A DNA stretch of 64,000 nt. Source: Tubiluchus corallicola. Its lineage: Eukaryota > Priapulida > Priapulimorpha > Priapulimorphida > Tubiluchidae. A model generated the notes under the pieces. That model worked only from the letters and a program-made list of their open reading frames with translations. It ran no database searches and was not told where the DNA came from. How positions within the stretch are numbered: position 1 is the stretch's first letter; the number at the start of each line of letters is the position of its first letter. This document shows, one piece after another, positions 53,701-56,700 of the stretch. The position numbers and the translations under genes were made by a program. The DNA is taken from the NCBI GenBank assembly GCA_030141605.1, contig JAQGDQ010000733.1:41737-105736 (forward strand), in the 5' to 3' direction.

Positions 53701-56700
53701 TAAGCAGTGGCAGCTCATGTATAGGCACTGTGCAGCCCCATTTTCACTCGAGCTTATCGATAACATTCAATATAATGAATCTTTTTTGTTTAATTCTTTC
53801 TTTATGCTTGTAAATCCTTGTACGGAACGAGAGCAAGTGATTGGAACTGTTTGCTTCATGGTTCCAGGGACATAGTGTTTGGCTGTTGTGCACATGCGGC
53901 TAGAGTTACCACATTGTCTGAGTTGAAAAAGAGGACACTGTGTAATTAGGCCAAAATGACCAGTCTAGGTTCGCAGTATTGTTTCAGATGTTCGGTTCGA
54001 ATACGCCAAGTATCGACAGCGGTGTGAGTCATGTGACCCATAGTGATGTGTGCATCGTTTACTTTTGTTCAGTAAAAACGTACACAAAGCTTTTACAAGG
54101 GTTGCATTTTGAGATGTTAGCAACATCTTGTATTGAAAATTAACGAGCTTTTCTTTGTCTCGTACTGTCGTCACTTTCGGATCTAATCGGCTTGTCCTGA
54201 CTAAACTTGTTATCACTTTCAGATCTAATCGGCTTGTCCTGACTAAACTTGTTGTCACTTTCAGATCTAATCGGCTTGTCCTGACTAAACTTGTTGTCAC
54301 TTTCAGATCTAATCGGCTTGTCCTGACTAAACTTGTTGTCACTTTCAGATCTAATCGGCTTGTCCTGACTAAACTTGTTGTCACTTTCAGATCTAATCGG
54401 CTTGTCTGACTAAACTTGTTGTCACTTTCAGATCTAATCGGCTTGTCTGACTAAACTTGTTGTCACTTTCAGATCTAATCGGCTTGTCCTGACTAAACTT
54501 GTTGTCACTTTCAGATCTAATCGGCTTGTCCTGACTAAACTTGTTGTCACTTTCAGATATAATCGGCTTGTCCTGACTAAATTTCTTGTCACTTTCAGAT
54601 CTAATCGGTTTGTCCGGACTAAACTTGTTGTCACTTTCAGATCTAATCGGCTTGTCCTGACTAAACTTGTTGTCACTTTCAGATCTAATCGGCTTGTCCT
54701 GACTAAACTTGTTGTCACTTTCAGATCTAATCGGCTTGTCCTGACTAAACTTGTTGTCACTTTCAGATCTAATCGGCTTGTCCTGACTAAACTTGTTGTC
54801 ACTTTCAGATCTAATCGGCTTGTCCTGACTAAACTTGTTGTCACTTTCAGATCTAATCGGCTTGTCCTGACTAAATTTGTTGTCACTTTCAGATCTAATC
54901 GGTTTGTCCTGACTAAACTTGTTGTCACTTTCAGATCTAATCGGCTTGTCCTGACTAAACTTGTTCTCACTTTCAGATCTAATCGGCTTGTCCTGACTAA
55001 ACTTGTTGTCACTTTCAGATCTAATCGGTTTGTCCGGACTAAGTTTGTTCTCACTTTCAGATCTAATCGGCTTGTCCGGACTAAATTTGTTCTCACTTTC
55101 AGATCTAATCTGCTTTTCCTGACTAAACTTGTTCTCACTTTCAGATCTAATCGGTTTGTCCGGACTCATCACTCCGTCGTTAGATGAAATGGTCCACGTT
55201 GCCCGAGAAATGGAACGAGTCGGATTGAAATTACCTCTTCTCATTGGAGGTGCTACGACGTCAAAGTATGTTTTTACTTAGTTTATACATTAGCAAAAAA
55301 AATTTTATTTATTATTAGTGAAGCACGAAAATATGTATGTTTATGTATTAGTAGAAAGTAAAAGTAAAAATATGTGGAAACTGAGTTGTTTGAAGGCCGA
55401 GTTTGTGAAAAATTGAGGTTAAAAATCGATCAATTTCGCTTTGATCATAGGGTCCCTTATATGAGAGGTAATTTACCTGGGTTTCTATTACGCGGGACCT
55501 GAAGATATCGTCCCTTATAACCGAAAGTCCCTTATATCTGAGTACCTTATATACGAAGATTTTTACATACGAAAAACGTTACGAAAAATAGGGACCGGTG
55601 TTGGTGGTCCCTTATAAGCAAGTACATTATACCCGAGGTAGACTGTAATTGTAAAAAGTTACGGGGGGGGGGGGGATGCATAGAATGTTCTGGATTCTGT
55701 TATTTTTTTTCCATTTTCTCTCTACAAGCTTGACTGGCTGTGTTTTTTCAAATTTAGTTTACAGTAATTCGGATTAAAGCAGCAGGTGTTTTGTTTTTTT
55801 GGCAGGACCCACACGGCCGTAAAGATTGCACCAAGATATAGTCAACCCGTCGTGCACGTCCTGGACGCTTCAAAAAGCGTCGTTGTGGTAGGTTTCTGTA
55901 AACTGACGTTTGCGTAAAATTCTCGTTTCAAAGCTTATTTATTGCGGTTGAAATTCATTTTTGAAGCTTCCAGTTTTCCTCAAACACTCGGTCAGAATGT
56001 GTCGGAGAGACATGATTTCCGGAATTTGAGTGCAATTTTGTTTTCCGTTCTGTTTGGTTTCGCCTGGTTGTGAAAACGTGATCTTTCTGCTATCGACAGC
56101 CATTTTCATATCAATGTCTCAAGTTATTTATTTATAACCTTGTGTGTTGTGTTGTCCGTTATAAAAACATAATGGAAATCAGAACTCATAGATGCAGCCA
56201 CTAACCTACATATGCTTCAGAATGAACTTTTGTACTTGAAGGAGAAGAAAAGGGAATTTTAAAGTAGCTCCTAAAAGACTTTCTTTACAAAATTATATTA
56301 CTTGGTGTTACGCTTATCTGCTTGAAAAATTTATGTAATTCGAAAGGAAAATACTGACTACTCATTACTCAATACTCACTACTACTACTTACTACTCTTT
56401 ACTCAATACTCACTACTACTACTTACTACTCGTTAGTCAATACTCACTACTACTACTTACTACTCGTTAGTCAATATTCACTACTACTACTACTGACTAC
56501 TCAGTACTCACTACCCCACTACTACTACCAACTGCTGATTACTCATTACTCACTACTGCTGCTGCTACTGCTGCTGCTGCTGCTGCTACTGCTGCTACTG
56601 CTACGATGATGACGACGACTACTACTACTACTACTACCATTACTGATTACTCAGTACTCACTACTGCTGCTACTACCGCTACCGCTACTACTACTACTTC

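Follow-up and report, generated by a model that had tools for sequence, protein, structure and literature searches.

The window (the whole 64,000-nt stretch of DNA analysed) contains 25 coding exons of MTR (methionine synthase), located by tblastn at 5602 to 58617 with a human MTR protein sequence as the query and joined at splice sites set by hand; the gene extends past the modelled exons. Exon 22, the 22nd of the 25, is entered through a GAT codon split G/AT (here and below the slash marks the splice site). The features discussed here are as follows.

5593..58618, forward strand: 25 coding exons of MTR (methionine synthase), 934 codons open (tblastn, gene model)
40635..40775, forward strand: MTR coding exon 16, with its authentic donor CACAG/GTAAGG (gene model)
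40764..41069, forward strand: second splice-site array, 3 copies of 102 bp (TRF, sequence, frame test)
54166..55166, forward strand: 42-bp minisatellite, 23 upstream units and a partial last unit in exon 22 (TRF, unit parse)
54181..54222, forward strand: first, intron-side unit, with GG replacing AG (unit parse)
54223..55144, forward strand: 22 decoy units with AG at the head of each and a stop 6–34 codons into the extension (unit parse, frame test)
55103..55144, forward strand: last decoy unit, with TGA at 55120 and CTGAC 22 nt before exon 22 (frame test, motif scan)
55145..55265, forward strand: MTR coding exon 22, 121 nt, entered in phase 1, ...GGATTSK, cobalamin-binding region (tblastn, gene model)

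The modelled donor of exon 19 (48838, GAC/GTCAAC) had the lowest score of the 25, and the true end of that exon may be elsewhere. The predicted MTR protein was 73% identical to that of Branchiostoma and 72% to that of the nemertean Lineus; B. belcheri and B. lanceolatum shared 96.6% identity, and for most between-group reference pairs the value was 72–79%. The animal is therefore probably not a Branchiostoma. Judged by these sequences, the 73% identity to Branchiostoma appears to lie within the between-phyla range. In a tree of 24 rows, built with 23 of 120 proteins that were themselves the best 120 of 7995 scored, the window sequence sat on a long branch; its grouping with Branchiostoma had a support of 73/92 (not starred), and neither a protostome (p 0.296) nor an ambulacrarian (p 0.192) placement was rejected. 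The top-scoring protein match, P0001, was discarded as not belonging to the window's species: it is a MetH in duplicated form, and its identity is only 56%.

The original prediction had placed a tandem array at the intron 21/exon 22 boundary of MTR, its last unit running directly into the exon at 55145, and this is confirmed by the gene model, by TRF (54166–55166, period 42, 23.9 copies, 96% matches, score 1820) and by a unit parse anchored on ATMTAATC, which yielded 24 copies, namely 23 units upstream plus the beginning of exon 22; the start first proposed, 54174, lies 8 bp inside that found by TRF. Each unit joins 20 nt from the end of the intron (AAACTTGTTGTCACTTTCAG) to 22 nt from the start of the exon (ATCTAATCGGCTTGTCCTGACT). 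The predicted count of about 23 units holds upstream of the exon, and the predicted length of 42 bp holds for 21 of these units, the other two (54391 and 54432) being 41 bp. A shared acceptor, CACTTTCAG, had been ascribed to every unit and is found in 23 of 24 copies; the first acceptor (54181) instead reads CACTTTCGG, with TTTCGG and no AG. Similarly, a CTGAC branch-point motif, also ascribed to every unit, is present ahead of 20 of the 23 acceptors that have AG, 55145 among them, with 22 nt separating the A of the motif from the exon, and is missing for those at 54641, 55061 and 55103, where CTAAT at 36 nt is left. With one unit lacking AG and three acceptors lacking CTGAC, the units are not all complete 3' splice-site modules, nor are the acceptors some 24 equivalents: decoy choices would give exons of 163 to 1043 nt, compared with 121 nt from 55145.

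Most units carry the proposed change from TCCGGA to TCCTGA. TCCTGA occurs in 18 of the 23 upstream units and TCCGGA in three (54599, 55019 and 55061), while in both 41-bp units the site reads TCTGAC and the stop is a TAA. By inspection, the consensus over positions -20 to +22 is present in 12 of 24 copies. Unit 1 and the exon-edge copies 20 and 22–24 depart from that consensus, as do inner units 6, 7, 10, 11 and 18; the edges of the array are decayed, and units carry private changes.

We joined exon 21 to each upstream AG and read on. All 22 joins met a stop after 6–34 further codons, in agreement with the prediction that upstream acceptor choice yields stop-containing transcripts, and MTR was encoded from only one of the 23 AG-bearing acceptors, 55145. 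The distance from these stops to the exon 22/23 junction ranges from 143 to 1023 nt, and the tails that precede them follow residue 808 and consist mostly of repeated DLIGLS. Units of the TCCGGA type had been expected to read through in frame; they do read on, yet never reach exon 22 because the unit at 55103 carries the TGA at 55120, where reading from the acceptors at 55019, 55061 and 55103 comes to an end. None of the 22 upstream AGs had a frame open to the real exon, which rules out an in-frame protein extension via TCCGGA units.

The authentic site was not distinguished by its own strength. Scored leave-one-out with a position matrix from the 23 other MTR acceptors (a weak matrix, in which an unrelated intronic AG at 53868 scores 10.3), the exon 22 acceptor was the lowest of the gene's 24, at -1.1 with a pseudocount of 2 and 1.7 with a pseudocount of 8, and we therefore rejected the idea of 55145 as the acceptor with the greatest intrinsic strength. 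Twenty of the 22 upstream AGs scored slightly above it (up to 5.4 versus -1.1). Its pyrimidine count was ordinary (12/17, with 11 to 12 across the array and 8 to 16 at the gene's other acceptors). Since intrinsic strength does not favour 55145, a choice of this site would have to rest on position.

Signs of selection on the splice signals were sought in 20 full-length units, a set that leaves aside unit 1, both 41-bp units and the copy in the exon. Departures from the consensus numbered 0/60 at positions -3 to -1, 5/220 in the polypyrimidine tract, 3/100 in the branch-point motif and 11/460 at other sites, so that among these 20 units no extra conservation of splice signals relative to the rest of the unit was detectable. 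The absence of changes at CAG (0/60) is compatible with constraint, though the counts are too few to tell. The TGA common to the units would most simply reflect one change spread by unit turnover.

A second array, missed by the original prediction, is the mirror case of the exon 22 acceptor array. At the end of exon 16, three copies of a 102-bp unit, comprising the last 12 nt of the exon and 90 nt of intron, duplicate the 5' splice site, so that the donor CACAG/GTAAGG could end the exon at 40775, 40877 or 40979. Use of copy 2 or 3 leads to a stop at residue 661; the exon 16 donor has the highest score of the gene's 25 donors. Each copy also holds a 26-nt, microexon-like stretch between CATCAG and GTAAGG. 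Near copies were found at only 2 of the 49 junctions scanned, the exon 22 acceptor and the exon 16 donor, and at 2 of 100 random control sites outside arrays. Among 16 intragenic arrays (hand-merged TRF calls with periods of at least 18 bp within the modelled gene span, short-period arrays being left out), two cover a junction; 0.78 were expected when founder units were placed at random (P(>=2) 0.18, 5,000 trials) and 4.46 when whole arrays were placed at random. An excess of junction-spanning arrays in MTR is accordingly rejected, two of 16 being within chance. Tandem arrays cover 15,583 of the 64,000 bases in a hand list from TRF; minisatellites are dense in this window, and some will fall on splice sites.

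Other repeats were observed in the same stretch. Two matches to 5S rRNA lie in MTR introns, at 41196–41314 (forward strand, 107 bits) and 32874–32992 (reverse strand, 98 bits), and share a tail past the 5S part that is 91% identical over 196 bp; from their sequences they look like copies of a 5S-derived SINE. Two arrays within one intron, at 39274–39495 and 39884–40395, have units ~83% identical in inverted orientation, so that a long, imperfect hairpin could arise in the transcript between exons 15 and 16. A 67-bp array of 64.1 copies follows closely after the last modelled exon and occupies 59742–64000, to the end of the window. On the reverse strand at ~1300–1730, open reading frames of a repeated GLCGIVVERGCP-like motif correspond to a 38-bp array (1309–1620) read in two frames and are probably not coding.

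Our preferred reading, to which we give a probability of roughly three in four, is that the exon 22 array is a neutral mirage, the name given in lancelets to minisatellites that tandemly duplicate intron/exon boundaries, whether 3' or 5' (PMC3087553, PMC3902484). A 42-bp piece straddling the boundary would have been duplicated in tandem and expanded by ordinary minisatellite turnover, with the authentic acceptor remaining at the exon-side edge. The spliceosome would then mainly use the exon-proximal AG at 55145, since exon definition, working back from the donor of exon 22, favours the acceptor that gives the shortest exon (121 nt). Transcripts leaking from upstream AGs, whose stops would precede the next junction by 143 nt or more, should be cleared by NMD, leaving the array nearly neutral, with a copy number that can vary freely. 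The choice of AG, the action of NMD, neutrality and copy-number variation are what we infer from the anatomy, acceptor signals and reading frames of the array. This interpretation is supported by the anatomy and edges of the array, by the fact that only 55145 encodes MTR while the 25 exons are open, by the lack of special conservation in the splice signals, and by the abundance of tandem arrays in the window, where two junction hits fall within chance. It is supported too by published mirages, which reportedly spare regular splicing, and by the human CBS 844ins68 duplication, in which the distal site is strongly favoured. Against it, the matrix does not favour 55145, and the upstream acceptors are transcribed first.

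Several other readings deserve consideration. The array could act as a copy-number dial, in which upstream acceptors compete measurably and yield NMD substrates, so that a longer array means less MTR. Its 22 AG decoys score like the real site, nearly all have CTGAC and all lead to a stop, and human tandem repeats at exon-intron boundaries can alter splicing patterns (PMC2812944); but the splice signals show no special conservation, regular mRNA is reportedly undisturbed by mirages in the lancelet Adh3, globin and troponin C genes (PMC3087553, PMC3902484), and CBS 844ins68 favours the distal site (PMC2630376), and we regard such a dial as unlikely. Slightly less likely again is its fuller version, in which the ladder of ~22 decoy acceptors forms a copy-number-variable brake: each unit would add an NMD-targeted acceptor, the exon-adjacent TGA would null every decoy, and unequal exchange would set MTR output. 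If this were true, MTR output and methylation capacity would differ between individuals.

There is a small chance, below that of either version of the dial, that the array is an assembly artefact or has the wrong copy number. Tandem arrays are error-prone in assemblies, and one lancelet mirage was reportedly assembled aberrantly in a draft (PMC3087553), but the units here differ from one another (two of 41 bp, three with TCCGGA, private changes), the edges are decayed, and many unrelated arrays share the window; the copy number may still be off. Alternative isoforms, meaning stable, shortened and functional MTR proteins made from the upstream acceptors, seem hardly credible. In their favour, short in-frame tails of 6 to 34 codons would be added after residue 808, but these are mostly repeated DLIGLS, and the cut would fall inside the cobalamin-binding region. 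Each stop also precedes the exon 22/23 junction by 143 nt or more, which under the usual rule is an NMD configuration. Equally improbable, in our view, is that the array is raw material for intron gain, with the exonic part of the unit turning into a new exon. Such a model has been proposed for amphioxus globin mirages (PMC3087553), and the exon 16 copies do carry CATCAG upstream and GTAAGG downstream of the 26-nt stretch; however, an exon of 26 nt would put the reading frame out of register, the highest score of any GT in the 42-bp units is 3.8, where the exon 22 donor reaches 5.0 by that scan, and the best-scoring GT motif of the units is also present in the real exon.

Mirages offer a natural experiment on spliceosomal choice between acceptors that are almost the same. 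The exon 22 array is long, clean and graded, lies upstream of a conserved enzyme sequence and is matched by a donor array; since acceptor and donor arrays occur in one gene, a single RNA-seq data set could measure both choices. Were this genome not a lancelet's, mirages would reach beyond the cephalochordates. There is also a warning for annotation, in that gene predictors could easily take the wrong AG at MTR exon 22.

The original prediction knew of no described case with this arrangement, a claim contradicted by the amphioxus mirages, and uniqueness of the MTR array is rejected on the same literature (PMC3087553, PMC3902484). Regular splicing is reportedly left intact by lancelet mirages of both kinds, many units retain AG or GT, and inner units are homogenised with one edge unit diverged (PMC3087553, PMC3902484); length instability between haplotypes or within an individual is also reported for them. 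The MTR arrays resemble them in structure. Units span the exon-intron boundary at both exon 22 and exon 16; many but not all retain AG or GT, with AG in 22 of the 23 upstream acceptor units and GTAAGG in 3/3 donor copies; and, by inspection, inner exon 22 units are homogenised and edge units divergent, though inner units 6, 7, 10, 11 and 18 deviate. Differences lie in copy number and unit size. The exon 22 array has ~23 upstream units, whereas the BflGb6 mirage has 3 and 6 in two haplotypes, and the MTR units of 42 and 102 bp compare with 150–160 bp in BflGb6, 157 bp in BflGb9 (at the 3' boundary of an exon) and 10–72 bp in the earlier described case of Adh3 (PMC3087553). A troponin C mirage is cited in PMC3902484, and lancelet PGBD5, with 60- and 108-bp repeats at splice sites, carries two arrays in one gene (PMC3902484), as MTR does here.

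Human genes offer partial analogues. CBS, like MTR, consumes homocysteine, and its 31-bp VNTR reportedly has effects on splicing. Named c.1444_1467+7(16_21), this VNTR has 16–21 copies and, per its name, spans the exon end and 7 intronic bases (PMC2630376); its copy number is thus similar to that of the MTR array, but it lies on the donor side and its unit is 31 bp. The CBS 844ins68 polymorphism is a two-copy, 68-bp analogue of what is an array in MTR: a duplicated intron/exon junction offers two competing sites, of which the distal is strongly favoured, and its use removes the upstream exon segment (the sites are termed 'donor' in PMC2630376, though the junction is intron 7/exon 8). Variable human repeats at exon-intron boundaries, mostly minisatellites with ~30-bp units, account for 27 intron modifications (PMC2812944). 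These repeats (e.g., UBC, VCX3A) give rise to introns or abolish them, or contain AGGT sites that can function in either role, 5' or 3', whereas the exon 22 units of MTR are acceptors only; no UBC-type dual-specific AGGT site occurs in the 42-bp unit, whose acceptor reads CAG/ATC and offers no good donor. The parts examined of the C. elegans and earthworm minisatellite literature do not describe the arrangement, and no 3'-splice-site arrays beyond those cited here were found in the literature searched. What is new here is the high copy number, the pairing of an acceptor array with a donor array within a single gene, and their occurrence in an MTR that is only 73% identical to that of Branchiostoma.
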